DNA of 64,000 bases from Streptomyces sp. RPA4-2 (lineage in GTDB: Bacteria; Actinomycetota; Actinomycetes; Streptomycetales; Streptomycetaceae), in the NCBI RefSeq assembly GCF_012273515.2, contig NZ_CP050975.2, positions 6,324,001-6,388,000 of the forward strand, read 5' to 3'. Below are positions 27,019-41,862 of the stretch, one piece after another. The translations under genes and the position numbers were made by a program. Numbering within the stretch: position 1 is the first letter of the stretch; each line of letters begins with the position of its first letter. The notes beneath the pieces were generated by a model. That model did no database searches, had not been told where the DNA came from, and worked only from the letters and a program-made list of their open reading frames with translations.

Positions 27019-28062
27019 ATGTCTCGCAGCATCAATCTCGCAGTGATCCCCGGTGACGGCATCGGCCAGGAGGTCGTGGCCCAGGGGCTGAAGGTGCTCT
27101 CCGCCGTCCTTCCGCAGGATGTGAAGCTGGAGACCAAGGACTTCGACTTCGGCGCCCGGCGCTACCACGCCACCGGTGAGACCCTCACCGAGGCCGACCT
27201 CGACGCCCTGAAGCGGCACGACGCGATCCTGCTCGGCGCGATCGGCGACCCCTCGGTCCCGTCCGGCGTCCTGGAGCGGGGCTTCCTGCTCAAGCTGCGC
27301 TTCGCCTTCGACCACCACGTCAACCTGCGTCCCTCGAAGCTGCTCCCCGGGGTCGCCACCCCGCTGGCCGGCCAGCCCGAGATCGACTTCGTGGTGGTCC
27401 GCGAGGGCACCGAGGGCCCGTACACCGGCAACGGCGGCACCATCCGCAAGGGCACCGAGCACGAGGTCGCCACCGAGGTCTCCGTCAACACGGCCTTCGG
27501 TGTCGAGCGCGTCGTCCGGGACGCCTTCGCCCGCGCCCAGGCCCGCCCGCGCAAGAAGCTGGCGCTGATCCACAAGAACAACGTGCTGACCTTCGCCGGT
27601 CACCTGTGGACGAACGTCTTCAACAAGGTGGCCGAGGAGTTCCCCGAGGTCACCACCGAGTACATGCACGTGGACGCGGCGACGATCTACCTCGTCACGC
27701 AGCCCGAGCGCTTCGACGTGATCGTCACCGACAACCTCTTCGGCGACATCATCACCGACCTCGCCGCGGCCGTCTCCGGCGGCATCGGCGTCGCCGCCTC
27801 CGGCAACATCAACCCGAGCGGCGAGTTCCCCTCGATGTTCGAGCCCGTGCACGGCTCGGCGCCCGACATCGCGGGCCAGGGCAAGGCCGACCCCAGCGCC
27901 ACCGTCCTGTCCGTCGCCCTCCTGCTGCGCCACCTCGGCTACGAGCCCGAGGCCGCGCGCATCGAGGACGCCGTCGCCGCCGACCTCGCCGAGCGCGTCG
28001 GGCAGCCCGCCCGCAGCACCGAGGAGATCGGCGACGCGCTCGCCGTACGAGTAGCCGGCTGA
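27019..28062 (+). CDS. leuB: 3-isopropylmalate dehydrogenase
   Basis: It oxidatively decarboxylates 3-isopropylmalate to 2-ketoisocaproate in leucine synthesis. The 347 residues show the family landmarks [22 protein letters not shown] at the start, [33 protein letters not shown], the substrate Lys in [12 protein letters not shown], and the NAD-binding [19 protein letters not shown]. The start is ATG 27019, with GGGGAG 12 bases upstream; the frame back to 26878 overlaps the divergent phosphatase promoter. No leuA, leuC or leuD is in the window. A canonical terminator follows. Confidence 0.96.
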
Positions 28063-28088
28063 CCCCGCGCGCTCACCCCAACGAAGCA

Positions 28089-28121
28089 GCCGCCGGGTCG
28101 CAACCGCGCCCGGCGGCTTTT
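28089..28121 (+). terminator. Rho-independent terminator after leuB
   Basis: GCCGCCGGG/CCCGGCGGC, a 9-bp stem with an 11-base loop, followed directly by TTTTCTT. It lies 26 bases after the leuB stop. Confidence 0.85.
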
Positions 28122-28244
28122 CTTCTGCCCTCGCCGGGTGCCACCATCAACCCCTGGGCAACCCCATGGGCCGCATTCACCCCGTTTTCGTCCACGGCCC
28201 CGAGCGCGCGATACTCGCGCGATAATCGAACGCGGAGCCGCTGA

Positions 28245-28340
28245 ATGAGGGAATGCTCGGACGTCCTAGCACTGGCCACGGGCAGTACAGGCGTGAGCGC
28301 GGCCCGTCACACACAACCGGTGAAGGACAACCACTCATGA
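28245..28340 (+). CDS. Possible upstream ORF overlapping the ilvE start
   Basis: ATG 28245 opens a 31-codon frame ([18 protein letters not shown]...) whose TGA overlaps the ilvE start codon as ATGA. An Ile-free run with Val-Leu-Ala-Leu occurs early in the frame. Overlap of stop and start would couple ilvE translation to it. There is no good ribosome site (GGAGCCGCTGA precedes it), so it may not be translated. Confidence 0.25.
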
Positions 28341-29443
28341 CGACGCCCACGATCGAGCTCAAGCCCTCTTCGCAGCCCCGCTCGGATGCGGAGCGCGAGG
28401 CGCTTCTCACCAGCCCCGGGTTCGGCCGCCACTTCACCGACCACATGGTGACGATCAAGTGGACCGAGGGCCGCGGCTGGCACGACGGTCAGCTCGTTCC
28501 GTACGGCCCGCTCTCCCTCGACCCGGCGAACATGACCCTGCACTACGCGCAGGAGATCTTCGAGGGCCTCAAGGCCTACCGCCAGCCCGACGGCTCCGTC
28601 GCCACCTTCCGCCCGGACAAGAACGCCCGCCGCTTCCAGGCCTCGGCCCGTCGCCTCGGCATGCCGGAGCTCCCCGTGGAGACGTTCATCGAGGCCTGCG
28701 ACGTGCTGGTCCAGCAGGACAGGGCCTGGGTCCCGCGGCACGGCGGCGAGGAGTCCCTCTACCTCCGCCCGTTCATGATCGCGACCGAGGTCGGGCTCGG
28801 GGTGAAGCCCGCCAACGAGTACCTGTTCCTCGTCATCGCCTCCCCGGCCGGCGCCTACTTCCCGGGTGGGGTGAAGCCCGTGTCCATCTGGCTCTCCGAG
28901 GACCGCGTGCGCGCCGTCCCCGGCGGCATGGGCGACGCCAAGACCGGCGGCAACTACGCGGCCTCGCTGCTCGCGCAGGCCGAGGCCGCCGCCAAGGGCT
29001 GCGACCAGGTCTGCTACCTCGACGCGGTCGAGCACCAGTGGATCGAGGAGCTCGGCGGCATGAACCTGTACTTCGTGTACGGCGGCGCGTCCGGTGAGAA
29101 GCCGGTGATCGTCACCCCGTCGCTCACCGGTTCCATCCTGGAGGGCGTCACCCGCGACTCCCTGCTCACGGTGGCCCGCGACCTCGGCTACGAGTCCCGT
29201 GAGGGCCGCGTCTCCATCGACCAGTGGCAGCGCGACGCCGAGAACGGCACGCTGACCGAGGTCTTCGCCTGCGGCACCGCGGCGGTCATCACCCCCGTCG
29301 GCACGGTCAAGCGCACCGGCGCCGAGTGGAAGCAGTCCGGCGGCGAGCCCGGCGAGGTCACCATGAAGCTGCGCGAGGCACTCCTCGACATCCAGCGCGG
29401 CATCAGCGAGGACCAGCACGGCTGGATGCACCGGCTGGGCTAG
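28337..29443 (+). CDS. ilvE: Branched-chain amino acid aminotransferase
   Basis: A PLP-dependent class IV aminotransferase that makes valine, leucine and isoleucine from their keto acids with glutamate. The 368 residues belong to the long (BCAT2-like) form. Typical sequence includes [45 protein letters not shown], the PLP Lys in [15 protein letters not shown] (within [11 protein letters not shown]), and the cofactor segment [15 protein letters not shown] 28337 lies nine bases after GAAGGA. An in-frame ATG at 28253 would add 28 residues but lacks a ribosome site. It is monocistronic: a terminator lies on each side. Confidence 0.96.
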
Positions 29444-29528
29444 GGCCTGTCGTTCGGATCACGCGGCGGGACGCGGTGCGGGGCACGCGCGTCCGCGGCG
29501 TGGTCATCGGTCCGGCGATCCACGAGTC

Positions 29529-29571
29529 CCGCCGGTCCCGGTCCCCCCGACAGGAGTGCGGGGACCGGCGG
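29529..29571 (+). terminator. Terminator after ilvE
   Basis: CCGCCGGTCCC (29529-29539) pairs perfectly with GGGACCGGCGG (29561-29571) over 11 bp, followed by TTCGTTCG. It lies in a 230-base spacer otherwise without recognised features. Confidence 0.65.
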
Positions 29572-29672
29572 TTCGTTCGACGCGTAGCGGCTCCGCGACA
29601 CGGGTATCCACAGATTCCACGGGGGAGCGTGCCGCCCTCCCGTGCGCCCGTACGACCACGGAGGGAGCGCAG

Positions 29673-30743
29673 GTGAGCGCAGGGTCGCCGCTGCCACGAC
29701 TGCGTTGGCTGCTGCGCACCTTACGCACCCCGCGCCGTCCCCAGAGCCTCACGGTTCTCGTCCTGCTCGCCGGCGTCGCCGCGCTCCTCCTGTGGAGCAG
29801 CTCGCGGATGGACAACTACGAGGAGAACCTCACCCTCAACCTCGGCACGGACATCGTCGGCGTCGTCGTCACCGTCTTCGTGATCGGCCCGCTGATCAGC
29901 CGTGCCCAGGAGGGCCGGGTCCGCGAGCACACCCGACTGGACTACGAGTGGTTCAGCGCCCAGGTCTACGGCTCGACCTCGAACGTGAAGGTCCTCGACA
30001 CCTTCTCCCACGTGTTCGGCCCGCAGTTCTCCGAGCGGCTCTTCCGCGGCATCAAGGCGGCCACCGGGCACGGCGCCCGCGTGCAGATCCTCCTTCTCGA
30101 CCCCGATTCCCTCGCGGTCATCCTGCGCGGCCGTGAACTGGGCGAGCGGAGTGACGACATCCGCCGCGACATCCTGCGCAACCTGCGCACGCTGGACCGG
30201 TTCGCGCTCCGGCTCGACGAGACATCCCGGCAGCTCCTCGAAGTGCGCCTCTGCTCCACGTCCCCCGGCGTGACCCTCTACCGCTGGGACGAGCGCTCCC
30301 TGGTCTCCTTCCTCACCGTCGGGCGTCTGTCCGGCGAGGGAGTCCAGCTGGAGGTCGCCGTCCACTCACCGCTCGGTACCTTCGTCGAACAACGCTTCGA
30401 CGAACTGTGGCAGCAGAGCAAGCCGATGGAACGGTTCACCCATCTGCCGCTGACCCTGGTCGACGCGACCGACGGGCGCCGGGAGTTCAGTTGTCGCTTC
30501 GTCCACGTGGACGACTGCCCGTACGTCGCCGGGCACGACCTGGTGTCGTACCTGGCCCGCCACCGTCTCGACCAACTCTCCGCCTACAGCGAGGCCTTGA
30601 ACGCCTCCGGGGCGCACGAGCTGATGGTCGTGGACGACGAGAGCGAGCTGCACGGCCTGCTCATGCAGCGCTTCGCGGAGAAGTACGATGCGTCGGCGGG
30701 CGCCTTCGTCGAGTTGCGGCCGTTGATCCTGGTCAGGGAATAG
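29673..30743 (+). CDS. Membrane protein with two N-terminal helices and a PLD-like cytoplasmic domain, function unknown
   Basis: 356 residues from GTG 29673, which follows GAGGGAGCG. Two hydrophobic segments lie at about residues 22-42 (LTVLVLLAGVAALLLW) and 53-75 (DIVGVVVTVFVIGPLI), leaving a ~275-residue soluble domain. It has a phospholipase-D-superfamily feel: VKVLDTFSHVF, then GARVQILLLDPDSLAVILRGREL, and late HSPLGTFVEQRFDELWQQ. I see no complete HKD motif, so catalysis is doubtful. The same Arg-Val-Leu-Leu-Asp-Pro and Ser-Pro pattern occurs in poorly characterised actinobacterial regulatory proteins, from memory. It is followed 14 bases later by a KamA-like gene and may be cotranscribed with it. 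I cannot assign a role. Confidence 0.75.
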   Translation: MSAGSPLPRLRWLLRTLRTPRRPQSLTVLVLLAGVAALLLWSSSRMDNYEENLTLNLGTDIVGVVVTVFVIGPLISRAQEGRVREHTRLDYEWFSAQVYGSTSNVKVLDTFSHVFGPQFSERLFRGIKAATGHGARVQILLLDPDSLAVILRGRELGERSDDIRRDILRNLRTLDRFALRLDETSRQLLEVRLCSTSPGVTLYRWDERSLVSFLTVGRLSGEGVQLEVAVHSPLGTFVEQRFDELWQQSKPMERFTHLPLTLVDATDGRREFSCRFVHVDDCPYVAGHDLVSYLARHRLDQLSAYSEALNASGAHELMVVDDESELHGLLMQRFAEKYDASAGAFVELRPLILVRE

Positions 30744-30757
30744 AGGCCCCGGCACAC

Positions 30758-32098
30758 ATGAGTTCAGCGCTCCACCCCGCTCGGCCCGCGAGACCCGGCT
30801 CCGCGCACCCGAGCCCTCGCTTCCGCGCCTTCACGCCCCGTGACCTGGACGGCCTGCTGCGGCGCGTGTCCCTGTCGCCCGCCGAGCGACTGGACCTGCG
30901 CGCCGTGGCGGCCGTCCTGCCGTTCCGTACGAACAGTTACGTGGTCGACGAGTTGATCGACTGGGCGGCCGTGCCCGACGACCCGCTCTTCCGGCTGACG
31001 TTCCCGCAGGCCGAGATGCTGCCCGAGCCCGACCTCAAGCAGATGGCGGACCTGCTCGCGCAGGACGCCCCGAAGGCCGACGTGCTGCGCGCGGCCCACG
31101 AGATCCGGATGAGGCTCAACCCGCATCCCTCCGGCCAGCTCGACGCCAACGTCCCCGTCCACGAGGGGCGGCGTCTCACCGGCCTCCAGCACAAGTACCC
31201 GGAAACGGTGCTGATCTTCCCGCGCCAGGGCCAGACCTGCCACGCCTACTGCACGTACTGCTTCCGCTGGCCCCAGTTCGTCGGCGAGTCCGACCTGCGC
31301 ATCGCCACCGACGACATCGCCGCCACCTCCGCCTATCTGCGCGCCCACCCGGAGGTCACCAGCACGCTCATCACGGGCGGCGACCCGATGGTGATGAGCA
31401 CCGAGGTGCTGCGCCGCTACGTCGAGCCGCTGCTGGAGATCGAGTCCGTCCGGTCGATCCGGGTCGGCACCAAGTCGCTCGCCTTCTGGCCCCACCGCTT
31501 CCTCACCGACCGTGACGCCGACGACGTGCTGCGCCTGTTCGAGAAGGTGGTCGCGAGCGGCCGCCACCTCGCGCTGATGGCCCACTTCACCCATCCCCAG
31601 GAGCTGCGGCCCCCGGTGGTGCGGGAGGCGATGCGCCGGGTGCGGGACACGGGTGCCGTGATCCGCTGCCAGGGGCCACTGGTCAGGGGCATCAACGACA
31701 GCGCCGAGGCGTGGGCCGGGCTGTGGAACGAGACGACCGCGCTGGGGGCGGTGCCGTACTACCTGTTCGTGGAGCGGGACACCGGCCCCCAGGGCTACTT
31801 CGGGGTGCCGCTCGCCCGCGGTCACCAGATCTTCCGCGACGCCTACGCCCAGGTGTCCGGCCTCGCGCGGACCGTGCGCGGCCCGGTCATGTCGGCGATG
31901 CCGGGCAAGGTGTGCGTGGACGGGGTCACGGAGGTGGCCGGCGAGAAGGTCTTCGTGCTCCACCTCATCCAGGCCCGCGACCCGGACCTGGTGGGCCGCC
32001 CGTTCTTCGCCGCGTACGACGAGAACGCCACCTGGTTCAGCGACCTCAAGCCCGCCTTCGGCGCGAGCCGGTTCCTGCCCGGCCTGGATGCGGGCTGA
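30758..32098 (+). CDS. KamA-family radical SAM protein (lysine 2,3-aminomutase-like)
   Basis: 446 residues. The radical SAM cluster motif is CHAYCTYCFRW (CxxxCxxC) near residue 163, with GGDP downstream as in aminomutases. Family features include LIFPRQGQTCHAYC, RIGTK-like VRSIRVGTKSLAFWP and LMAHFTHPQEL. Lysine 2,3-aminomutase binds PLP through a Lys in a glycine-rich loop; here the corresponding region reads SAMPGKVCVDGV, a reduced version. The product could therefore be an aminomutase with another substrate. The start is ATG 30758 after GAGG. It directly follows the two-helix membrane protein, and its 3' end faces the permease gene across a hairpin. Confidence 0.82.
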   Translation: MSSALHPARPARPGSAHPSPRFRAFTPRDLDGLLRRVSLSPAERLDLRAVAAVLPFRTNSYVVDELIDWAAVPDDPLFRLTFPQAEMLPEPDLKQMADLLAQDAPKADVLRAAHEIRMRLNPHPSGQLDANVPVHEGRRLTGLQHKYPETVLIFPRQGQTCHAYCTYCFRWPQFVGESDLRIATDDIAATSAYLRAHPEVTSTLITGGDPMVMSTEVLRRYVEPLLEIESVRSIRVGTKSLAFWPHRFLTDRDADDVLRLFEKVVASGRHLALMAHFTHPQELRPPVVREAMRRVRDTGAVIRCQGPLVRGINDSAEAWAGLWNETTALGAVPYYLFVERDTGPQGYFGVPLARGHQIFRDAYAQVSGLARTVRGPVMSAMPGKVCVDGVTEVAGEKVFVLHLIQARDPDLVGRPFFAAYDENATWFSDLKPAFGASRFLPGLDAG

Positions 32099-32116
32099 GC
32101 CGAGGATCGCCTCGGC
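32099..32116. terminator. Hairpin between convergent KamA-like and permease genes
   Basis: GCCGAGG and CCTCGGC form a 7-bp stem with a four-base loop directly after the KamA-like stop, followed by CTTCTC. Confidence 0.6.
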
Positions 32117-32148
32117 CTTCTCACCCGGCGCCCAGGGCTCGCCGATGG

Positions 32149-33594
32149 TCAGCTCCGTGGGCCCGCTGCAACGCTGATCCCCTCCTGAGCGGACTCCGAG
32201 CCGCTCGTCCCGGAGGCCGGGCTCAGGGACAGCGCCAGGTACGCGACCCCACCGACCAGTCCCGACAGGACGAAGCTGCAGTCCACCCCGCCGGTGAGGG
32301 ACAGGAGTGGTCCCTCGTAGGAGGGCAGGGACACGGCGAGCAGGCCGACGGTGGCGCCGAGGACCCAGGAGACCGTCGCCCGGACGTTCCAGCCGGCGCG
32401 GTACCAGTAGATCCCGCCCCGGGAGCGGCGGTTGAAGACCTGGAGGGCGTCCGGGTCGTAGCTTCCGCGGCTGCGGGCGAAGCCGATGAGGGTGATGACC
32501 GCCCACGGGGTGCCGATGGCCGTCAGGAGAAGGACGAAGGACGTCATCGCGGACTGCGCGTTCCAGGCGTAGTGGCCGACGAAGACACAGACGGTGGCGA
32601 CGACGGCGACCGTGAGGGTGGCCCGGGCGCGTGAGGCCCGCGGCAGGATCGCGTCCAGGTCCAGGCCCATCGAGTACAGCATCAGTCCCGCGTTGCCGAC
32701 CGAGCCCGCGGAGGCGGCGAGCAGGAGCGGGACCAGGTACCAGGCGGGGGAGGCGGAGACCAGCGGTCCCGCGTAGTCGAGGGCGGCGCGGGCCGCGTAC
32801 GCCGTGAAGGTCCCGAAGAGCTGGGGGACGAGCAGGCCGGCGATCAGTCCCAGCCAGGTGGCGTGCAGGACCGTGCGCGAGGAGTGCCGGGACGGGGAGA
32901 TGTACCGGGTGTAGTCACCGAGCAGGGTGATGAACGCGATGGGCCCGGACAGCCCCGCCGCGACCGCCGCCAGCAGCCAGGTCGGCCAGAACGAGCCGAG
33001 CAGGTAGCCGCCCGCCTCGGGGAGCGCGGCGGTGGTGAAGTGCGGCGCGTACGCGAGGACGCCGAGGGCGAGCAGCGCGGTCATGCCCACCGCGAGGACA
33101 CGGGACATGGCGAGCAGCACCCGGTAGCCGTAGACCGCGCCCGCGACGGTGGCGGCGGCGAGGAGCGCGTACACGACGGCGTAGGCGAGGCCGTCCACCG
33201 GCAGTCCGAACAGCCGGTGCAGGACGCCGATCATCACATCGCCGCCGATCCACACGGTCAGCGCGGTGTAGCCGAGGGCGAGCAGCAGCCCGACGACCGA
33301 GCCGACCAGCCGCCCGCGCACCCCGAACTGGGCGCCGGAGGAGGTGGAGAGGTTGGTGGCCGTGCGCAGCGAGACCAGCGCCAGGGGAGCGGTGAGCGCC
33401 GTGCCGATCACCGTGCCGGCCACGATCGAGCTCACCGAGGACCACCAGTCGAGCCCGAAGGACGGCGGCAGCCAGCCGAAGATGATCACGCCGAGACAGA
33501 GGTTGGAGCCGAGCAGGATCGAGACGAGGTCGCGCGGACCGCTGGTCCGCTCCTCGTCGGGGATGGTGTCGACTCCGCGCTGTTCTATCGGCAT
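32149..33594 (-). CDS. NCS1-family permease (cytosine/purine/allantoin type)
   Basis: 481 residues with about 12 hydrophobic helices. The N-terminal NCS1 signature region reads SILLGSNLCLGVIIFGWLPPSFGLDWW and helix 6 region LLGDYTRYISPSR follows. NCS1 proteins import nitrogen-rich compounds such as cytosine, allantoin or hydantoins using Na+ or H+. I chose ATG 33594, which follows AAGGAG at proper spacing; the frame extends to 33642. It is divergent from ureAB and shares a spacer with two copies of an operator-like sequence, so it probably supplies substrate or precursor for the urease-like cluster. The substrate cannot be read from sequence. Confidence 0.88.
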   Translation of the reverse strand: MPIEQRGVDTIPDEERTSGPRDLVSILLGSNLCLGVIIFGWLPPSFGLDWWSSVSSIVAGTVIGTALTAPLALVSLRTATNLSTSSGAQFGVRGRLVGSVVGLLLALGYTALTVWIGGDVMIGVLHRLFGLPVDGLAYAVVYALLAAATVAGAVYGYRVLLAMSRVLAVGMTALLALGVLAYAPHFTTAALPEAGGYLLGSFWPTWLLAAVAAGLSGPIAFITLLGDYTRYISPSRHSSRTVLHATWLGLIAGLLVPQLFGTFTAYAARAALDYAGPLVSASPAWYLVPLLLAASAGSVGNAGLMLYSMGLDLDAILPRASRARATLTVAVVATVCVFVGHYAWNAQSAMTSFVLLLTAIGTPWAVITLIGFARSRGSYDPDALQVFNRRSRGGIYWYRAGWNVRATVSWVLGATVGLLAVSLPSYEGPLLSLTGGVDCSFVLSGLVGGVAYLALSLSPASGTSGSESAQEGISVAAGPRS

Positions 33595-33621
33595 GGCTGG
33601 TCTCCTTCGATCCGCCGCCCG

Positions 33622-33730
33622 GTTGTTTAGAGCGACGTTCAATGTGTCGCTTTCCAGGTGCGCCCGTCAATGCCCCACTGCCTGTCAATGTTTCCCTCTT
33701 GCCCATCCGTTGTTTAGAGTGATGTTCTAA
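33622..33730. promoter_or_regulatory. Two operator-like repeats between permease and ureAB
   Basis: GTTGTTTAGAGCGACGTTCAAT at 33622-33643 in abbreviated form GTTGTTTAGAGYGAYGTTC recurs at 33709-33730, 18 of 22 positions matching, 87 bases apart. The second copy contains TTAGA and TCTAA as inverted half-sites. One copy lies next to each divergent gene, which suggests one regulator acting on both. The TetR gene at 37345 is the obvious candidate. Confidence 0.6.
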
Positions 33731-33758
33731 CCAGTGGAAGGCAAGGAGGTGCCGCGTC

Positions 33759-34457
33759 GTGAGACTGACCCCCACGGAACGTGACCGGCTGCTGCTCTTC
33801 GGCGCGGCCGAGCTGGCCCGGGCCCGCCGGGCCCGTGGCCTGAGGCTCAACGTCCCCGAGGCGACCGCGCTCATCGCGGACACCGTGTGCGAGGCGGCCC
33901 GCGACGGGCGCCGGCTCGCGGAGGCCATCGAGGCGGCCCGCTCCGTGCTCGGCCCGGACGACGTGCTGCCGGGTGTCGCCGACATCGTCACCGAGGTGCA
34001 CGTCGAGGCCGTCTTCGACGACGGGTCCCGGCTCGCCGTGGTGAGCGACCCCCTCGGCGCGGGACTGGGGGAGGAGGGACCGGGCGCCCTGCTGCCGGGT
34101 CCCGCGCACACCGAGCCCGAGGCCGCCGTGCGGCTGACGGTCACCAACACCGCCACCGTGCCCGTCTCCGTCACCTCGCACTTCCACTTCTTCGAGGCCA
34201 ACCCGCGGCTCGACTTCCCCCGGGCGACGGCCTACGGGATGCGGCTCGCCGTCCCCGCCGGTTCGTCGGTCCGCTTCGGCCCCGGGGAGAGCGCCGAGGT
34301 CGGCCTGCGCCCGATCGGCGGAGCGCGGGTCGCGATCGGCTTCGCCGGACTCGTGGACGGTCCGCTGGACGCGCCCGGAGCCCGGGAGGAGGCCCTGCGC
34401 AGGGCAGCCGCCTGCGGGTACCTCGGCGCCGACGAAGCCGAAGGGGACGAACGATGA
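33759..34457 (+). CDS. ureAB: Urease gamma-beta fusion subunit
   Basis: 232 residues joining the two small urease subunits. The gamma part (~1-95) starts MRLTPTERDRLLLFGAAELA and includes GLRLNVPEATALIADTVCEAARDG. The beta part (~115-215) carries SHFHFFEANPRLDFPRA and GMRLAVPAGSSVRFGPGE. Such fusions are known in actinobacteria and Helicobacter. The start is GTG 33759, nine bases after AAGGAGG. Its stop overlaps the ureC start as ATGA, so translation is coupled. No accessory genes (ureD, E, F, G) occur in the window, so nickel loading must depend on genes elsewhere. Confidence 0.93.
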   Translation: MRLTPTERDRLLLFGAAELARARRARGLRLNVPEATALIADTVCEAARDGRRLAEAIEAARSVLGPDDVLPGVADIVTEVHVEAVFDDGSRLAVVSDPLGAGLGEEGPGALLPGPAHTEPEAAVRLTVTNTATVPVSVTSHFHFFEANPRLDFPRATAYGMRLAVPAGSSVRFGPGESAEVGLRPIGGARVAIGFAGLVDGPLDAPGAREEALRRAAACGYLGADEAEGDER

Positions 34458-36124
34458 ATCCGTACGAGTACGCCGCCACCCACGGCCCCCGCGCGGGCGA
34501 CCGCGTCCGCCTCGGCGACTCGGGGCTGACCATCCGCGTCGAGTCGGACTCCCAGCGACACGGCGACGAGTTCCTCGCCGGCTTCGGCAAGACCGCCCGC
34601 GACGGGCTGCACCTCAAGGCCGCCGCCGTCCGCGACACCTGCGACGTCGTGATCAGCAACGTGGTGGTGATCGACGCGGCGCAGGGCATCCGGAAGGTCT
34701 CCATCGGCATCCGCGAGGGGCGGATCTGCTCGATCGGCCGGGCCGGGAACCCCGACACCCTCGACGGGGTCGACGTCGTGGTGGGCACGGGCACGTCCAT
34801 CGTGTCCGGCGAGGGACTGATCGCCACCGCCGGAGCCGTCGACACCCACGTCCACCTGCTGTCGCCGCGCATCATGGAGGCCTCGCTCGCCTCCGGCGTC
34901 ACCACCGTCATCGGCCAGGAGTTCGGGCCGGTGTGGGGAGTCGGCGTCAACTCGCCCTGGGCGCTGCGCCACGCCTTCTCCGCGTTCGACGCGTGGCCGG
35001 TCAACATCGGCTTCCTGGGCCGGGGTTCGTCCTCGTCCGACGCGCCCCTGGTCGAGGCCCTCGCCGAGGGCGGCGCGAGCGGCTTCAAGGTCCACGAGGA
35101 CATGGGCGCCCACACCCGCGCCCTCGACACCGCGCTGCGCGTCGCCGAGGAGCACGACGTCCAGGTCGCCCTGCACAGCGACGGGCTGAACGAATGCCTC
35201 TCGGTCGAGGACACCCTGCGGGTGCTGGACGGCCGGACCATCCACGCCTTCCACATCGAGGGCTGCGGCGGCGGGCACGTCCCGAACGTCCTCAAGATGG
35301 CCGGCGTCCCGAACGTCATCGGCTCCTCCACCAACCCCACCCTGCCCTTCGGCCGGGACGCGGTCGCCGAGCACTACGGCATGATCGTCTCCGTCCACGA
35401 CCTCAAGACCGACCTGCCCGGCGACGCCGCCATGGCGCGCGACCGGATCCGCGCCGGGACCATGGGCGCCGAGGACGTGCTGCACGACCTGGGCGCGATC
35501 GGCATCACGTCGTCGGACGCGCAGGGCATGGGCCGCGCGGGCGAGACCGTACGCCGGACCTTCGCGATGGCCGGAAAGATGAAGACCGAGTTCGGCGCCC
35601 CGGAGGACCACGACAACGAACGCGTCCTGCGGTACATCGCCAAGCTCACCATCAACCCGGCCATCGCCCACGGGCTCGCGCACGAGGTCGGCTCCCTCGA
35701 GGTCGGCAAGCTCGCCGACATCGTGCTGTGGCGCCCCGAGTTCTTCGGCGCCAAGCCGCAACTGGTCCTGAAGTCCGGCTTCCCGGCCTACGGCGTCGTC
35801 GGCGACCCGAACGCCGCCACCGACACCTGCGAACCCCTCGTCCTGGGGCCGCAGTTCGGGGCGCACGGTGCGACGCCCGCCGAGATCTCGGTGGCCTTCG
35901 TCGCCCAGGCGGCCCTCGACCAGGGCAACGACCGGATGCCGACGCGCCGGCGCAGGGTCGCCGTGCGAGGCACGCGCGGGATCGGCCCCGCCGACCTGCG
36001 CCTCAACTCCCGTACGGGAGCCGTCGACGTCGACCAGCGCACCGGCCTGGTCACCCTGGACGGCGAGCCACTGCGCTCCGAGGCCGCCGACTCCGTATCC
36101 CTCAACCGCCTCTACTTCCTGTGA
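34454..36124 (+). CDS. ureC: Urease alpha-subunit homologue with altered active-site flap
   Basis: 556 residues, slightly short for UreC (about 570). All metal ligands expected from Klebsiella urease are visible: H132 and H134 (VDTHVHLLSP), the carbamylated K212 (GFKVHED), H241 (VALHSDGLNE), H267 (FHIEGCGGGH) and D355 (ITSSDAQGMGR), plus substrate His 214. The mobile flap differs. Instead of MVCHHL it reads SVHDL: the Cys is Val 314, the catalytic His is kept (315) and the next His is Asp 316. The Trp after the metal Lys is Met. It is therefore probably an active Ni hydrolase but possibly not a urea specialist. It is translationally coupled to ureAB and followed 11 bases later by agmatine deiminase. 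Confidence 0.9.
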   Translation: MNPYEYAATHGPRAGDRVRLGDSGLTIRVESDSQRHGDEFLAGFGKTARDGLHLKAAAVRDTCDVVISNVVVIDAAQGIRKVSIGIREGRICSIGRAGNPDTLDGVDVVVGTGTSIVSGEGLIATAGAVDTHVHLLSPRIMEASLASGVTTVIGQEFGPVWGVGVNSPWALRHAFSAFDAWPVNIGFLGRGSSSSDAPLVEALAEGGASGFKVHEDMGAHTRALDTALRVAEEHDVQVALHSDGLNECLSVEDTLRVLDGRTIHAFHIEGCGGGHVPNVLKMAGVPNVIGSSTNPTLPFGRDAVAEHYGMIVSVHDLKTDLPGDAAMARDRIRAGTMGAEDVLHDLGAIGITSSDAQGMGRAGETVRRTFAMAGKMKTEFGAPEDHDNERVLRYIAKLTINPAIAHGLAHEVGSLEVGKLADIVLWRPEFFGAKPQLVLKSGFPAYGVVGDPNAATDTCEPLVLGPQFGAHGATPAEISVAFVAQAALDQGNDRMPTRRRRVAVRGTRGIGPADLRLNSRTGAVDVDQRTGLVTLDGEPLRSEAADSVSLNRLYFL

Positions 36125-36135
36125 AGGTGCCCGCC

Positions 36136-37173
36136 ATGACCCCTGCCTCCGACGGTTTCCGGATGCCCGCCGAGTGGGACGCGCACGAGCGCACCTGGAT
36201 GGCGTGGCCGGGCCCGAACCCCACCTTCGACGACCCGGACGAGCTCGCGCGGGCGCGGGCCGCCTGGGCGTCGGTGGCGCGCGCGGTCCGCCGCTTCGAA
36301 CCGGTCACCGTCGTGTGCGGGCAGGGGCAGTCCCGGGAGGCCGCGGAGCTCCTCGGCCCCGGGGTCGACACCGTGGAACGGGAACTCGACGACGCCTGGA
36401 TGCGTGACATCGGCCCCACCTTCCTCACCGACGGCAAGGGTGGACTGGCCGCCGTGGACTGGACGTTCAACGGCTGGGGCGCCCAGGAGTGGGCTCGCTG
36501 GGAGCACGACGCCAAGATCGGCGCGTACGTCTCGGACCTCGCGGGCGCCAGGACGTACGCCTCGCGGCTGGTCAACGAGGGCGGCGCGATCCACGTGGAC
36601 GGCGAGGGGACCGTCCTGCTCACCGAGACCGTCCAACTGGGCCCGCAGCGCAACCCGGACTGGACGCGCGAGCGGGTCGAGTCGGAGATCCACGCCCACC
36701 TCGGCACCCGCAAGGCGATCTGGCTGCCGCGCGGACTGACCGGCGACTACCCCCCGTACGGCTTCGGCACGCTCGGGCACGTCGACATCGTGGCCGCCTT
36801 CGCCCGCCCCGGAGTCGTCGTCGCGCACCACCAGCCGGATCCCGCGCACCCCGACCACGAGGTGACGAAGGAGGTCATCGGGCTGCTGAGGGCGCAGACC
36901 GACGCGCGCGGGCGCCCCCTGGAGGTCGTCGAGGTCCCGGCACCGACGGTCCTGGAGGCCGACGGGCACTGGGCGGACTACTCCTACATCAACCACTACC
37001 TCTGCAACGGCGGTGTCGTGCTGTGCGGCTTCGACGACCCGCGTGACGACACCGCGGCCGGGATCTTCCGCGAACTGTTCCCCGAGCGGACGGTGACCCT
37101 GGTGGACGCCCGTACGATCTTCGCGGGCGGGGGCGGTATCCACTGCATCACCCAGCAGCAGCCGAAGGTCTGA
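36136..37173 (+). CDS. aguA: Agmatine deiminase (peptidylarginine-deiminase family)
   Basis: It converts agmatine to N-carbamoylputrescine and ammonia. The 345 residues show the PPAD-fold landmarks: MPAEWDAHERTWMAWP at the start, DDAWMRDIGPTFL, NEGGAIHVDG, FGTLGHVDIVAAF and the nucleophilic Cys in GGGGIHCITQQQP at the C-terminus. ATG 36136 lies eight bases after GAAGG; GTG 36121 overlaps the ureC stop. Its place in the ureAB-ureC transcript suggests both act on one pathway. AguA yields a ureido compound, and no carbamoylputrescine amidohydrolase (aguB) is seen in the window. A TetR gene follows. Confidence 0.92.
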   Translation: MTPASDGFRMPAEWDAHERTWMAWPGPNPTFDDPDELARARAAWASVARAVRRFEPVTVVCGQGQSREAAELLGPGVDTVERELDDAWMRDIGPTFLTDGKGGLAAVDWTFNGWGAQEWARWEHDAKIGAYVSDLAGARTYASRLVNEGGAIHVDGEGTVLLTETVQLGPQRNPDWTRERVESEIHAHLGTRKAIWLPRGLTGDYPPYGFGTLGHVDIVAAFARPGVVVAHHQPDPAHPDHEVTKEVIGLLRAQTDARGRPLEVVEVPAPTVLEADGHWADYSYINHYLCNGGVVLCGFDDPRDDTAAGIFRELFPERTVTLVDARTIFAGGGGIHCITQQQPKV

Positions 37174-37344
37174 GGCCAGGGGCCCGAGGTCCGGGGCCCG
37201 CCGACCCGCGCGAGCGGGGGTCGGGTAGAACGTACAGGTGAACGTACTGCTCTGTACCGTGTGCCGGCGCCGCCCTCGCCGGGCCGAGGTGACCACCGGG
37301 GCCGACCGGGCCCCGGGCGGTACGGAGACCGTGGAGGCCGCCCC

Positions 37345-37935
37345 GTGACCCGTCGCCGCAACACCGCACCGCCCCGCGAGGAGGTCCTCGGGGTGGCGAT
37401 GGGCATGATCGCCGAGCGCGGCCTGGAGAAGCTCACCATGGCGGCGCTCGGCCGCGAGGTCGGGATGAGCAGCGGCCACCTCCTCTACTACTTCCGCTCC
37501 AAGGACGAACTGCTGCTCCAGACGCTGGAGTGGAGCGAGGGCCGGCTCGGTGCCGAGCGCGGCCGGCTGCTCGCCGCGCGGGGCACCGCCCGCGGCCGCC
37601 TGGACGCGTACGTCGCCCTGTACGTCCCCGACGGCCACCGCGACCCCCACTGGACGCTCTGGCTGGAGGTCTGGAACCACTCGCAGAACGCCGGCGAGGA
37701 CGCCCGTGAGCGGCAGGTCGCCATCGAAGGGGCCTGGCACCGGGACCTGGTGGCGCTGATCGCCGAGGGTGTCTCGCGGGGCGAATTCCGGCAGGTCGAC
37801 CCGGACCGCTTCGCCGCGCGGCTGCGGGCCCTGCTCGACGGCTTCTCCATCCACGTGGCGATCGGGCTGCGCGGCACCGACCGGGAGCGGACCCTCGGCC
37901 ACGTGAAGGAGTTCCTGGACGCATCGCTCGGCTGA
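37345..37935 (+). CDS. TetR-family regulator (BetI-like) of the urease-like/agmatine cluster, probable
   Basis: 196 residues from GTG 37345, seven bases after GGAGG. The HTH (EEVLGVAMGMIAERGLEKLTMAALGREVGMSSGHLLYYFRS) fills residues ~12-55, and the helical domain contains LWLEVWNHSQN and RLRALLDGFSIHVAIG, as in BetI/AcnR-like regulators. It follows aguA by 171 bases; that spacer holds inverted GTACAG (37232) and CTGTAC (37252), 14 bases apart, which could be its own site. By position it may control ureAB-ureC-aguA and the divergent permease through the repeats at 33622-33730; this is inference. Confidence 0.88.
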   Translation: MTRRRNTAPPREEVLGVAMGMIAERGLEKLTMAALGREVGMSSGHLLYYFRSKDELLLQTLEWSEGRLGAERGRLLAARGTARGRLDAYVALYVPDGHRDPHWTLWLEVWNHSQNAGEDARERQVAIEGAWHRDLVALIAEGVSRGEFRQVDPDRFAARLRALLDGFSIHVAIGLRGTDRERTLGHVKEFLDASLG

Positions 37936-38079
37936 CCACGGGCGCCGCCCGGTCGCGGACGGGTGCGGACCCGTGCGGCCCGGGACGGCCATGGCCGGAA
38001 GCCGCCCTCGGAAACGGACGAACCGCTCGCATCCTGAGACGATCTGGGCCCGTGGGCGGCGCTGTGCCAGACTGCCCCC

Positions 38080-38210
38080 GTGCTCTCGTTCGCCATGATT
38101 ATGGGCAGCAGGCGCGCCGGTCCGCAGTGACCGCCACGTACCACCACGTACGGGCGGGCACCGTCGTCCTCGACCCGCGCGCAGACCTCTCGCACCCGCG
38201 AGAGGTTTTT
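38080..38210 (+). promoter_or_regulatory. Candidate attenuator leader upstream of cimA
   Basis: A terminator-type hairpin, CCTCTCG/CGAGAGG (38186-38192 with 38199-38205) followed by TTTTTCGTTTT, lies 110 bases before cimA and cannot serve the TetR gene 250 bases upstream. A short frame from GTG 38080 (or ATG 38095) to TGA 38130 could encode a leader peptide containing Met-Ile-Met, but it lacks a clear ribosome site and a run of Leu/Ile/Val codons. Attenuation of a branched-chain amino acid gene is plausible by analogy with the ilvB leader. Confidence 0.5.
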
Positions 38211-38319
38211 CGTTTTCCTGGCCCACCACAAGCCGGGAAGGGAGCGCGAGGGATCATTGGGGGACGGTGGAGCCGGTCATTCCGGTACAGACCGAGATCC
38301 AACACAGGAGCCAGACACC

Positions 38320-39924
38320 ATGACCGAAACCAGCGAGCTCGACGATTCGTTCCACGTCTTCGACACGACCCTGCGCGACGGCGCGCAGCGTGAGGGCATC
38401 AACCTCACCGTGGCGGACAAGCTGGCCATCGCACGGCACCTGGACGACTTCGGGGTGGGCTTCATCGAGGGCGGCTGGCCCGGCGCCAACCCGCGGGACA
38501 CCGAGTTCTTCGCCCGCGCCCGGCAGGAGATCGACTTCAAGCACGCCCAGCTCGTGGCCTTCGGCGCCACCCGCCGGGCGGGAGCGAAGGCGAGCGAGGA
38601 CCAGCAGGTCAAGGCGCTGCTGGACTCCGGTGCCCCGGTGATCACGCTGGTGGCCAAGTCCCACGACCGCCATGTCGAGCTCGCGCTGCGCACGACCCTG
38701 GACGAGAACCTGGAGATGGTCCGCGACACCGTCTCCTACCTGTGCTCGCAGGGCCGGCGCGTCTTCGTCGACTGCGAGCACTTCTTCGACGGCTACCGCG
38801 CGAACCCCGCGTACGCGAAGGCGGTCGTCCGGGCCGCCTCCGAGGCGGGCGCCGACGTGGTCGTGCTCTGCGACACCAACGGCGGCATGCTCCCGGCCCA
38901 GGTCCAGGCGGTCGTCGCCACCGTCCTCGCCGACACCGGGGCCCGGCTCGGCATGCACGCCCAGGACGACACGGGCTGCGCGGTGGCCAACACGCTGGCC
39001 GCCGTCGACGCGGGCGCGACGCACGTGCAGTGCACGGCGAACGGCTACGGCGAGCGGGTCGGCAACTCGAACCTGTTCCCGGTGGTGGCGGCCCTGGAGC
39101 TGAAGTACGGCAAGCGGGTGCTGCCCGAGGGCGCGCTGCGGGAGATGACGAGGATCTCGCACGCGATCGCGGAGGTGGTCAACCTGACGCCTTCGACGCA
39201 CCAGCCCTATGTGGGTGTTTCCGCGTTCGCGCACAAGGCCGGTCTGCACGCTTCGGCGATCAAGGTCGACCCGGACCTCTACCAGCACATCGACCCCGAG
39301 CAGGTCGGCAACACCATGCGGATGCTGGTCTCCGACATGGCGGGCCGCGCGTCGATCGAACTCAAGGGCAAGGAACTCGGCATCGACCTCGGTGGCGACC
39401 GCGAACTGGTGGGCCGGGTCGTCGAGCGGGTCAAGGAACGCGAGCTCAGGGGCTATACGTACGAGGCGGCCGACGCGTCCTTCGAGCTCCTGCTGCGCGC
39501 GGAGGCCGAGGGCAGGGCCCGCACGTACTTCGAGGTCGAGTCCTGGCGGGCCATCGTCGAGGACCGCCCCGACGGCACCCACGCCAACGAGGCCACGGTC
39601 AAGCTCTTCGCCAAGGGCGAGCGCATCGTCGCCACCGCCGAGGGCAACGGTCCCGTCAACGCCCTCGACCGCGCGCTGCGGGTCGCGCTCGAGAAGATCT
39701 ACCCCCAGCTCGCCACGCTGGAACTCGTCGACTACAAGGTGCGCATCCTGGAGGGCAAGCACGGCACGTCCTCCACGACCCGTGTGCTCATCTCCACCTC
39801 CGACGGCGCGGGCGAGTGGTCCACGGTCGGCGTCGGGGAGAACGTCATCGCCGCGTCCTGGCAGGCACTGGAGGACGCGTGCACCTACGGTCTGCTGCGG
39901 GCGGGTGTGGAACCGGCCGCGTAG
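38320..39924 (+). CDS. cimA: Citramalate synthase / 2-isopropylmalate synthase-like enzyme
   Basis: 534 residues of the DRE-TIM metallolyase family, which condenses a 2-keto acid with acetyl-CoA. Family motifs: DTTLRDGAQREGINLT at the start, HAQDDTGCAVANTLAAVDAGATHVQCTANGYGER, FAHKAGLHASAI, and a C-terminal LeuA allosteric dimer domain (~residues 400-520). The length and sequence style fit the CimA subgroup (pyruvate to citramalate, an alternative isoleucine route) rather than LeuA. ATG 38320 follows AGGAG by nine bases; a TTG at 38257 is in frame. A hairpin at 38186 may attenuate it. The exact substrate, pyruvate or another keto acid, needs assay. Confidence 0.88.
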   Translation: MTETSELDDSFHVFDTTLRDGAQREGINLTVADKLAIARHLDDFGVGFIEGGWPGANPRDTEFFARARQEIDFKHAQLVAFGATRRAGAKASEDQQVKALLDSGAPVITLVAKSHDRHVELALRTTLDENLEMVRDTVSYLCSQGRRVFVDCEHFFDGYRANPAYAKAVVRAASEAGADVVVLCDTNGGMLPAQVQAVVATVLADTGARLGMHAQDDTGCAVANTLAAVDAGATHVQCTANGYGERVGNSNLFPVVAALELKYGKRVLPEGALREMTRISHAIAEVVNLTPSTHQPYVGVSAFAHKAGLHASAIKVDPDLYQHIDPEQVGNTMRMLVSDMAGRASIELKGKELGIDLGGDRELVGRVVERVKERELRGYTYEAADASFELLLRAEAEGRARTYFEVESWRAIVEDRPDGTHANEATVKLFAKGERIVATAEGNGPVNALDRALRVALEKIYPQLATLELVDYKVRILEGKHGTSSTTRVLISTSDGAGEWSTVGVGENVIAASWQALEDACTYGLLRAGVEPAA

Positions 39925-39944
39925 CGCGAGCAGCCGGGCACGGG

Positions 39945-39974
39945 CCCCGGCGAGGTGTGAAGACCTCGCCGGGG
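39945..39974. terminator. Bidirectional terminator between cimA and the GH30 gene
   Basis: A perfect 12-bp stem (CCCCGGCGAGGT/ACCTCGCCGGGG) with a six-base loop lies between the convergent stops. Confidence 0.75.
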
Positions 39975-39996
39975 ACCCGCGCCGGACCTCCGTGGC

Positions 39997-41862
39997 CTAC
40001 TGCAGGTGCCACTTCTGGTTGGCCGCTCCCGTGCACGTCCAGATCTGCGCCCGTGCCCCGTTCGCCGAGGAGTTGTCGGTCACGTCGAGGCACTTGTTCG
40101 CCGCGGTGTTGACCACGTCACCCGTCGAGGCGTTGTACGACCACCGCTGGGCGCCGCTCCCGTTGCAGTCGTACAGCTGGACCTTGGCGCCGTTCGCGGT
40201 CGAGGCCGAGGTCACGTCCAGGCACTTGCCGAGCGTCTGCACCGAGCCGTCCGCCTGCACCGCCCACTTCTGGGCCGCGCTGCCGTTGCAGTCGTAGAGC
40301 TGCACCGCGGCGCCGTTGGCGCTCGAACCGCCCGCCACGTCCAGGCACTTGCCCGCGAGCCCGACGAAGGAGCCCGACTGGCCGCCGCCCCCGCCCGACT
40401 GCGTGCCGGACCAGGTGAAGGTGGCCGAGGTCTTGCCCGGCAACGAGTAGGTGGCGTGCTGCGAGCCCCAGTTGACAGTGATCGTCTTCGCGGCGGACGC
40501 GTCGTTGTACGCGATCAGCGCCTTCGACCCGTCCGGGTTGCGCCACGCCACGTTCGGCACCGACGTGGACGCCGTCGACGCGATCCGCTGGGCACCGGGC
40601 CGGACGAACTTCGTCAGGTGGCCCATCGTGTAGTACTCGACCGTGTAGTCGACGCTCCCGCTCGCCCCGTCGCCGTTGTGCACGGTGATCAGCCCGCTGC
40701 ACGTCCCGCAGCCGCCGTTGTGCGGCCCCCGGTTCTGGTCCACGGCCAGCGACCACTTCGTCACCGACTTCGCCCAGTTGCGCGTGTAGTCGACGATGTT
40801 GAGCATGTCCTCGCGCTGCTGGTTGGCGATCCAGGTGCCGCCCGAGTGCTCGGTCCCGAAGGCGTCCAGCCCCGGGTACTGGTTGTGCACACTCGTCTGC
40901 TTGTTGATGTCCCCGCCGTACCCGTGCCAGGCGATCCCGCCGAAGTTCGGGTGGGAGCGCACCGCCGCGTCGTCGACGGTCGGGGCGGCGTACGAGTCGT
41001 ACACGTCCCAGTTCCAGTCGTGGGCGAGGACCTTCGTGGACAGGCCCGCCGCCTGCAGCTTCGGCAGCAGCTCGCTCTTGGTGAAGTAGGCGAGCCCGGA
41101 GCCGTTCCAGCTCATCGAGGGGTACCCCGAGCAGCAGGTCGGCTCGTTCTGCGCGGTGACGTACGAGACCGGCACGCCCTGGTCCCGGTAGGCCTGGAGA
41201 TACTTCACGAAGTACGAGGCGTACGCCCCGTAGTCCTCGGACTTCAGCCAGCCGCCGTTGAGCTGCCCGCTGTCCTTCATCCAGGCCGGAGCCGTCCACG
41301 GCGAGGCCATCACCGTCAGCGACGGGTTCAGCTGGAGCGCCTGCTTCGTCAGCGGCACCACGTCCGCCAGGTCGTGCGCGATCGAGAACTGCGCCAGGTT
41401 CGGGTCGCTCTGCCCGGCCGGCACGTCGTCGTAGGTGTAGCCGAACCGCGCGAGGTCCGACGCGCCCATCGGATTGCGCAGGAAGGACAGCCCGATGCCG
41501 TCCGTCGGTGAGAACAGCTTGCGCATCGTGGCGTCCCGCGTCGACTGCGAGAGCGCGCCACTGCTGTTCATCAGCCAGGCGGCGGTGTCGGTGAAGGAGG
41601 CACCGCCGCCGGTGAAGGTCTGGTACCGGGTGTTCTCGTCGACGGTGATGTTCTCGCCGCTTCCGCCGCTGCCGGACTGGAAGGCGAACGGCGCCTGGGC
41701 CTGGAGCCCGCGTACGACATGACGGCCGCCGTCGTCATCGGTCGTGGTCAGCCAGGCGGTGACCTGTTCGCCCGCGGCGTGCGCGGGCGCGGCCGCCGTG
41801 AACCCGGCCGTGGTGAGCAGACCGGCGAGAAGCAGCCGGACCGCTCGAGTGGATCCCCTCAT
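39997..41862 (-). CDS. Secreted GH30 glycoside hydrolase with C-terminal ricin-type (CBM13) domain
   Basis: 621 residues. A Sec signal peptide (MRGSTRAVRLLLAGLLTTAG..., cut after AHA) precedes a GH30 (beta/alpha)8 barrel. The acid/base Glu lies in VTAQNEPTCCSGYP and the nucleophile Glu in DAFGTEHSGGTW, with TVMASPWTAPAWMKDSG upstream. A Gly-rich linker leads to a beta-trefoil with three repeats ending AAQKW, GAQRW and ANQKW, the QxW signature of CBM13. GH30 members cleave beta-1,6- or beta-1,3-glucans, xylans or glucosylceramide, so the substrate is open. ATG 41862 follows GAAGGG. It is divergent from a GH3 gene with a nearly identical promoter. Confidence 0.9.
   Translation of the reverse strand: MRGSTRAVRLLLAGLLTTAGFTAAAPAHAAGEQVTAWLTTTDDDGGRHVVRGLQAQAPFAFQSGSGGSGENITVDENTRYQTFTGGGASFTDTAAWLMNSSGALSQSTRDATMRKLFSPTDGIGLSFLRNPMGASDLARFGYTYDDVPAGQSDPNLAQFSIAHDLADVVPLTKQALQLNPSLTVMASPWTAPAWMKDSGQLNGGWLKSEDYGAYASYFVKYLQAYRDQGVPVSYVTAQNEPTCCSGYPSMSWNGSGLAYFTKSELLPKLQAAGLSTKVLAHDWNWDVYDSYAAPTVDDAAVRSHPNFGGIAWHGYGGDINKQTSVHNQYPGLDAFGTEHSGGTWIANQQREDMLNIVDYTRNWAKSVTKWSLAVDQNRGPHNGGCGTCSGLITVHNGDGASGSVDYTVEYYTMGHLTKFVRPGAQRIASTASTSVPNVAWRNPDGSKALIAYNDASAAKTITVNWGSQHATYSLPGKTSATFTWSGTQSGGGGGQSGSFVGLAGKCLDVAGGSSANGAAVQLYDCNGSAAQKWAVQADGSVQTLGKCLDVTSASTANGAKVQLYDCNGSGAQRWSYNASTGDVVNTAANKCLDVTDNSSANGARAQIWTCTGAANQKWHLQ

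Follow-up and report, generated by a model that had tools for sequence, protein, structure and literature searches.

The ureAB-ureC2 locus is found in Streptomyces sp. RPA4-2, whose 9.86-Mb genome is a single contig. The 64,000-nucleotide stretch analyzed here (NZ_CP050975.2, positions 6,324,001 to 6,388,000), called the window below, carries a gene for a fused urease gamma-beta subunit whose end overlaps, by four bases (ATGA), the start of a urease-alpha homologue that we term UreC2. A gene for a protein of the PPAD (agmatine deiminase) family begins just 3' of the ureC2 stop codon, and a TetR-like regulator gene follows, an arrangement seen in many Streptomyces loci (Table 1). The initial annotation described a UreC homologue with every urease ligand, and this is borne out, as the reading frame has exactly the limits and length given in the table. 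UreC2 has the Urease_alpha N-terminal domain and an amidohydrolase barrel with the HxH pair, carbamylated Lys, two His and Asp of the UreC fold family. Its score passes the cut-off of PRK13207 (urease alpha), as that of the fused subunit does for PRK13192 (bifunctional gamma/beta), although these are subfamily names only. However, it falls below the cut-off of the urease alpha equivalog TIGR01792 (632.1 against 680), the mark of a canonical urease. The PPAD-family protein aligns to solved agmatine deiminases, has the PF04371 fold with the catalytic Cys motif, and is the sole PF04371 match in the genome.

Table 1. Features of the ureAB-ureC2 locus, in window coordinates.
Feature	Position	Strand	Remarks
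NCS1-family permease (PF02133)	32149..33642	-	Pfam 343 bits; divergent from the ureAB operon
Inverted repeat TTAGAGTGATGTTCTAA	33714..33730	+	Candidate operator for the local TetR regulator
ureAB, fused urease gamma-beta subunit	33759..34457	+	PF00547 + PF00699; PRK13192 over cut-off
ureC2, urease-alpha homologue, 556 aa	34454..36124	+	Pfam Urease_alpha + Amidohydro_1; clade assigned by tree
Shortened active-site loop GQEFGPVWGVG, codons 154-164	34913..34945	+	Clade marker Q155/W161
VSVHDL flap, codons 312-317	35387..35404	+	Cys to Val, catalytic His kept, next His to Asp
Gly358-Met359 (canonical Ala363-Met364)	35525..35530	+	Ala to Gly in the urea pocket
PPAD/agmatine-deiminase-family protein, 345 aa	36136..37173	+	PF04371 362.7 bits; GGGxIHCITQQQP catalytic Cys motif
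TetR/BetI-like regulator	37261..37935 (possible start 37345)	+	PF00440, PF13977

Neither ureD nor ureG is found in the window, in agreement with the initial annotation, which had reported that all of ureDEFG are missing; the family searches, here and in the genomes described below, covered UreD and UreG, not UreE or UreF. A canonical urease operon lies elsewhere in the same genome (contig C1, 1.632-1.637 Mb) and comprises a MVCHHL-type UreC, UreG, UreD and, as named by eye, UreF. No other UreG in this genome passes its cut-off, and no other UreD match occurs; both genes are at C1:1.633-1.634 Mb.

UreC2 is a widespread actinobacterial clade of urease relatives. We aligned 184 UreC sequences (126 UreC2, 50 canonical and eight others, with 16 duplicate or fragment loci left out) and built a tree from 99 of these rows, omitting near-duplicates and many Streptomyces. 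The 61 UreC2 rows form one clade (SH-aLRT 99) apart from the 30 canonical rows (99), to which UreC2 proteins are about 46-50% identical, and the closest rows to the window protein come from its own genus. Among the best 80 of 591 matches, named members belong to Streptomyces, Kitasatospora, Streptacidiphilus, Nonomuraea, Thermoactinospora, Thermocatellispora and Microtetraspora, and others come from metagenome-assembled genomes (MAGs) of Nanopelagicales, Acidimicrobiaceae and other actinobacteria. The 14 non-actinobacterial loci among the same 80 matches are all canonical, each with UreG nearby. UreC2 is present in 88 of 150 genomes sampled from the genus, and no viral copies were confirmed.

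The metal center is conserved throughout. The alignment shows no variation (184/184) at either His of the HxH motif, at the carbamylated Lys or the His and Asp that come after it, at the other two His ligands and the Asp ligand, or at the His and Arg of the flap. Canonical residue numbers follow K. aerogenes urease. For the 126 UreC2 proteins, the conservation of catalytic residues extends down to about 52% identity.

The surroundings of this center differ from those of canonical ureases. Q155, W161 and C271 are present in 126/126 UreC2 proteins and in 0/50 canonical ones. A counted loop segment has 15 residues in all 126 UreC2 proteins and 19 in 45 of the 50 canonical proteins, and the four-residue gap is also seen against a solved urease. 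Canonical Ala363 is Gly in 122/126 UreC2 proteins (2/50 canonical); the four exceptions are the plasmid loci L103-L106. The second His of the flap is replaced in every UreC2 protein and is His in 48/50 canonical proteins. In urease structures, residues of this loop and Ala363 hold the urea amide. Because they are changed across the clade, UreC2 seems to have rebuilt its substrate site around an intact metal center.

The canonical flap motif MVCHHL and the window motif VSVHDL align without gaps, so the earlier observation that the flap Cys is Val and that the catalytic His stays is correct. In place of the canonical Cys-His-His and Ala363, the window protein has V-H-D and Gly. The accompanying idea that the SVHDL flap defines the clade does not survive. 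Although the flap Cys is replaced in 120/126 UreC2 proteins, its position varies among them (92 Val, 19 Ala, 7 Ser, 6 Cys, 2 Thr), and Val is also found there in 3/50 canonical and 8/8 other lone UreC proteins. Loss of this Cys was therefore rejected as a marker; the clade markers are the loop shorter by four residues, Cys271 and the change of Ala363 to Gly.

Several lone or unusual UreC loci stand out in the same alignment. The plasmid loci L103-L106 (NZ_CP108786.1, NZ_CP109047.1, NZ_CP109401.1 and NZ_CP109408.1) encode 66-68% identical UreABC2 proteins within a nonribosomal peptide synthetase (NRPS) cluster, and have Ser and Ala where the other 122 UreC2 proteins have Ala and Gly. The L104 cluster encodes NRPS domains, a lone condensation domain, a phosphotransferase, a 528-aa protein weakly matching a B12-binding domain, and a 2-oxoglutarate-iron oxygenase. 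The annotation of L103 and L105 is similar, and L106 is unannotated. Val also occupies the place of the flap Cys in two more clades of lone UreC proteins (L039, L101 and L102, from family f15; and L109, L118 and L121), which are possibly other non-canonical ureases. No UreG is found in genomes G022 and G127 or in the stretches of L109, L118 and L121.

Most genomes with divergent UreC2 proteins lack the proteins that load nickel into canonical ureases. UreG (TIGR00101) and UreD (PF01774) were searched by profile in 40 genomes, including 22 whose UreC2 is about 52-74% identical to that of the window, and both are absent in 20 of the 22. The exceptions are G622, which has UreG, UreD and a second UreC, and G646, in which UreD is missing and UreG is incomplete, at the edge of a contig. 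A 46-bit UreG match in G418 (cut-off 204) was not counted. UreC2 is the only UreC match in 21 of the 22 (E <= 1e-100). Genome G441 (family f89, 99% complete) has UreC2 alone and neither UreG nor UreD, and G171 has a fragmented canonical UreC together with UreG and UreD matches that are no more than weak. Most of these genomes are drafts, with estimated completeness of 93-100%, and it is unlikely that the same genes are missing from 20 assemblies by chance. A tblastn scan with UreD, UreF and UreG queries from the host genome (E <= 1e-10) found no match in the stretches around 104 UreC2 loci, and found matches in 16/16 canonical loci. By gene presence, then, the clade does not show the dependence on UreD and UreG that is typical of canonical urease. 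Since both are absent from 20 of the 22 divergent genomes, UreC2 cannot in general depend on them, and its independence of the canonical nickel chaperones is quite probable. The assumption that the window protein is a nickel enzyme in need of such chaperones thus becomes doubtful.

A cation-diffusion-facilitator transporter gene and a gene for a thioredoxin-tetratricopeptide repeat protein are found near UreC2 in L070, L072 and L073 (domains checked in L070). In L070 and L072, they stand between UreC2 and AguA. The cation-diffusion-facilitator gene is possibly a link to metal.

Genes for PPAD-family deiminases, scored with three reference sequences, are frequent neighbors of UreC2. A PPAD gene occurs within 3 kb in 74 of the 104 UreC2 loci, on the same strand in 71; some of the 104 loci are closely related, some genomes contribute two copies, and 14 loci have less than 3 kb on one side. 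Of the 90 loci whose flanks both extend for 3 kb or more, 66 have PPAD at this distance. The corresponding count in controls is 0/36, made up of 16 canonical loci and a further 20 (17 canonical and three of another lone class), and PPAD is found at one of four loci of other lone UreC classes (L099). In the genus, PPAD is encoded by 107 of 150 genomes, comprising 88/88 with UreC2 and 19/62 without it (Fisher P = 6e-23, relatedness ignored).

A PPAD tree of 44 rows, drawn from the window and 34 selected loci, is suggestive of repeated recruitment. The window type comprises 24 rows (support 99) and extends from Streptomycetaceae as far as two genomes of family f103 and an Acidimicrobiaceae MAG. 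Bona fide AguA proteins from L069, L070 and L072 form another clade (100), and a divergent set linked to UreC2 is found in L093, L098, L157, L162 and L171. At least three PPAD clades are therefore linked to UreC2, and this recurrence outweighs any single count as evidence. The loci of the divergent set have two to four PPAD genes around UreC2. Oligopeptide-type ATP-binding cassette (ABC) transporter domains are found in L093 and L098. An 885-aa open frame in L098 (10776-13433) encodes a PPAD domain and, after it, a solute-binding domain of the SBP_bac_5 family, and is either a fusion or a frame artefact.

The neighbors in L070, L072 and L069 score over the cut-off of the AguA equivalog TIGR03380 (552, 543 and 517.5 bits in genomes G662, G709 and G418) and lie 2.07, 2.06 and 0.53 kb from UreC2, respectively. 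None of these three genomes has AguB over the cut-off (75.7, 62.7 and 245.6 versus 410) or putrescine carbamoyltransferase (PTC) over the cut-off (237, 253 and 269 versus 500), and their PTC scores are at the level of most other genomes searched. In these organisms, the step that is lacking after AguA would best be assigned to UreABC2.

The window genome likewise has no AguB. The initial annotation noted its absence from the window, and this extends to the whole genome, where nothing exceeds the TIGR03381 cut-off (best score 258.7 versus 410.25). The two best AguB-like genes (258.7 and 256.6 bits) were rejected as AguB on the basis of their neighborhood, L207 (C1:7140000-7158000). There, these two nitrilases accompany a dihydropyrimidinase over its cut-off, an F420 oxidoreductase and an aminotransferase. 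This resembles a cluster for reductive pyrimidine catabolism, and the nitrilases look like beta-ureidopropionases.

Where PPAD is missing, another hydrolase gene tends to take its place. Among the 104 loci, 17 of those without a nearby PPAD gene have an Amidohydro_3 gene within 5 kb of UreC2. Seven of the 22 divergent genomes lack any PPAD match (TIGR03380, E <= 0.001), and each of these carries an Amidohydro_3 gene no more than 0.8 kb from ureC2, versus 2 of the 15 PPAD-bearing genomes (P = 0.0002) or 5 of the 15 when the distance is 5 kb (P = 0.005), with relatedness ignored in both comparisons. In six of the seven, the gene is directly upstream of ureAB, the slot that holds PPAD in L083 and L084. 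Genes similar to PotABCD lie beside several Amidohydro_3-linked loci; by their scores, those of L074 encode components of a polyamine ABC transporter, and solved structures of polyamine-binding proteins match its binding protein. Because Amidohydro_3 fills the PPAD slot and polyamine transporter genes are nearby, the arrangement suggests that it may perform the same guanidine-opening step. A search for solved structures related to the Amidohydro_3 partner returned only two uncharacterized hydrolases. In L131 and L134 (Nonomuraea) and in L064, an Amidohydro_3-like gene is directly 3' of UreC2, unlike the upstream placement of the L074 type. In L079 and L080, from genomes of 1.6-1.8 Mb, UreC2 is followed by a C45 acyltransferase, a flavin adenine dinucleotide-dependent oxidoreductase (checked in L079) and then PotB/PotD-like genes.

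Of 74 upstream regions examined, 40 have a palindrome that conforms strictly to TTAGA-N(5-9)-TCTAA, some 30-80 bases ahead of ureAB, and inspection by eye shows looser forms in several of the rest. In the window, the TetR protein may bind TTAGAGTGATGTTCTAA, and a TetR-controlled catabolic operon would be the natural reading. The NCS1 permease, a candidate importer, is encoded next to ureAB in many but not all of the loci from Streptomyces; the other UreC2 groups scanned have no such neighbor. Its NCBIfam NCS1 score (49.8 bits) is far under the cut-off, and no solved structure was found for it. Rfam has no match in window positions 28000-40000, and therefore no known guanidine riboswitch is present there. 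Seven related loci gave only three tRNAs, all in L085.

These observations lead to a proposal to which we assign a probability of roughly 0.52: UreABC2 is a urease-fold hydrolase that works without chaperones and acts on an N-substituted urea supplied by the neighboring deiminase. Because the helper proteins are absent in many genomes and an enzyme that turns a guanidine into a urea is often adjacent, UreC2 probably splits a substituted urea and not urea as such, a substrate assignment that we put slightly above even odds. UreAB and UreC2 would form a binuclear metallohydrolase whose metal center is assembled without UreDEFG. The PPAD-family deiminase would convert a guanidino compound into a mono-substituted urea, and UreABC2 would then convert R-NH-CO-NH2 into R-NH2, CO2 and NH3. 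The genes would thus constitute a two-step catabolic operon, from guanidino via ureido compound to amine, under a local TetR repressor. In lineages with bona fide AguA, the substrate would most likely be N-carbamoylputrescine. In the window type of Streptomyces, it might be N-carbamoylputrescine or a related ureido compound, perhaps imported by the NCS1 permease. The substrate, the metal, self-maturation and induction are what we infer from gene content and sequence. More tentatively, UreABC2 might be a new type of enzyme built on the urease scaffold, a self-maturing and possibly non-nickel 'ureidase' for N-substituted ureas that Actinobacteria have repeatedly paired with guanidine openers (window-type PPAD, AguA, the divergent PPAD set and Amidohydro_3), that leads from guanidino compound to amine without AguB, and that has also been recruited into an NRPS cluster.

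A number of findings weigh against this proposal. The deiminase link, postulated from the single window locus, is well founded in the locus and genus counts given above, but it is not universal. Among 39 UreC2 loci of less than 83% identity, PPAD is found at 10, Amidohydro_3 at 17 and neither at 12. Because PPAD is present at so few of these, pairing as regular as this is characteristic of Streptomycetaceae and Streptosporangiaceae. In the whole set, 13 of 104 loci have neither partner (for example, L063 and L065), and the next genes in L063 encode 2-oxoacid dehydrogenase. The linkage counts are, moreover, not phylogenetically independent. UreG and a canonical urease are also encoded by the window genome and by six of the seven genomes of family f89, where UreC2 might be matured in trans. 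A 2008 tree groups the S. coelicolor ure(AB)C genes with genes of P. syringae and Bradyrhizobium, which sit in ureEF(AB)CGD clusters with chaperones present (PMC2492869), and SCO5525-5527 of S. coelicolor do not respond to arginine or ArgR (PMC3293853).

The link to agmatine has difficulties of its own. The initial annotation called the next gene an agmatine deiminase, and its family and catalytic Cys motif agree with this, but the protein scores below both NCBIfam AguA cut-offs (308.6 versus 381.8 for TIGR03380, and 311.2 versus 483). Compared with the three bona fide AguA proteins, it has 25 near-fixed differences and is missing some 18 residues that form a loop before the SYxN motif. For these reasons, its guanidino substrate may be something other than agmatine. 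Agmatine deiminase identity is thus not established for this protein, and N-carbamoylputrescine becomes one candidate of several, a doubtful one, for the UreC2 substrate in the window organism. In G662, G709 and G418, AguA is encoded on the strand opposite to UreC2, and in L070 and L072 two other genes separate them, so AguA and UreC2 are not one operon. Six genomes have AguA over the cut-off, and it is near UreC2 in three. In G724, both AguA and UreC2 are located at contig ends. In G431, the two are on different contigs and AguA lies beside a PTC-like gene (459 bits); this genome was consequently rejected as support for N-carbamoylputrescine. G218 has AguA over the cut-off and no UreC of the UreC2 clade. 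Overall, the direction of the earlier proposal, hydrolysis of a substituted urea, appears right, and its specific commitments to the flap, nickel and agmatine went too far.

Alternately, UreABC2 might be a true, chaperone-free urease, with the adjacent PPAD enzyme making urea from free guanidine or another compound. Every catalytic residue of urease is retained, the deimination of guanidine would yield urea directly, and accessory-free ureases have a precedent in Helicobacter mustelae UreA2B2 (PMC6737895). This is nonetheless unlikely, as the residues that we take to hold urea are changed across the clade, bona fide AguA neighbors would produce a substituted urea, polyamine-type transporter genes lie beside several Amidohydro_3-linked loci, and the Rfam searches revealed no guanidine riboswitch in the window region and only tRNAs in the related loci. 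Somewhat less probable still is an ordinary second nickel urease with a drifting flap, served in trans by canonical UreDFG. The canonical operon of the window genome could supply UreG and UreD, and Streptomyces ure(AB)C genes are counted as urease genes (PMC5489568 and PMC3293853). However, G441 and the other divergent genomes without UreG and UreD would have no such supply, and pocket changes as fixed as Q155, W161 and C271 are unlike drift.

The deiminase linkage might also be real, with UreABC2 acting on a later or cyclic ureide, such as a hydantoin-like or allantoin-like compound. The NCS1 permease gene divergent from the operon in many Streptomyces would fit this, as would the Amidohydro_3 partners, because dihydropyrimidinases share the amidohydrolase fold. 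We consider it improbable, given that PPAD enzymes yield open-chain ureas and that no cyclic-ureide pathway gene is found among the part of the neighbors that was scanned. A catalytically dead UreABC2, or one with a structural or regulatory role, is hardly credible: the literature consulted on ure(AB)C mentions no activity for UreABC2, but all ligands and catalytic residues are invariant in 126 sequences that diverge to about 52% identity. Hydrolysis of a substituted urea from the adjacent deiminase remains the reading that we prefer.

With the canonical nickel urease (UreABC with UreDEFG), UreC2 shares its fold, subunits, ligands, carbamylated Lys, flap His and Arg. It differs in the shorter pocket loop, A363G, C271 and the replaced second flap His, in the absence of UreG and UreD from most divergent genomes, and in its frequent deiminase linkage. 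The second urease of H. mustelae, UreA2B2, is said to be independent of accessory proteins (PMC6737895), and its metal is reported to be iron (PMC3919588, PMC11541087). UreC2 is not specially close to it: PDB entry 3qga, labelled 'Urease subunit beta 2' and presumably UreA2B2, scores 503.6 bits, versus 531.2 for the best urease. We know of no deiminase link for UreA2B2. In the AguA-AguB and AguA-PTC pathways, the ureido product must also be cleaved after the deiminase has acted (PMC9397018). The first step is thus shared, and a urease-fold enzyme is proposed for the second step here. AguB is a nitrilase-family amidase, and PTC is a transcarbamoylase.

The ure(AB)C genes themselves are already known. 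Clusters with ure(AB)C only are described in S. coelicolor (SCO5526) and S. avermitilis (PMC2492869), and these genes are counted among urease genes (PMC5489568). SCO5525-5526 are listed as urea-utilizing, and SCO5527 is among homologues of the arginine decarboxylase pathway (PMC3293853); judged from gene order, SCO5525-5527 would be the orthologues of the window genes. In another paper, 'SCO5526' stands for nrdABS (PMC4991794). That usage is, we assume, a misprinted locus tag. The literature searched, which many subscription papers lie outside, contains no proposal of a substituted-urea substrate for the UreC2 clade and no description that we found of its chaperone-free distribution or deiminase linkage.

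Urease is commonly regarded as acting on one substrate and as being strictly dependent on nickel chaperones. If the proposal is correct, UreC2 would show that the urease scaffold has evolved to use new substrates, and perhaps new metals. It would also account for the second step in agmatine-type catabolic pathways that have no AguB. Finally, the 'urease' annotation would be corrected in 88 of the 150 sampled genomes of the genus, including its use in predicting ureolysis.

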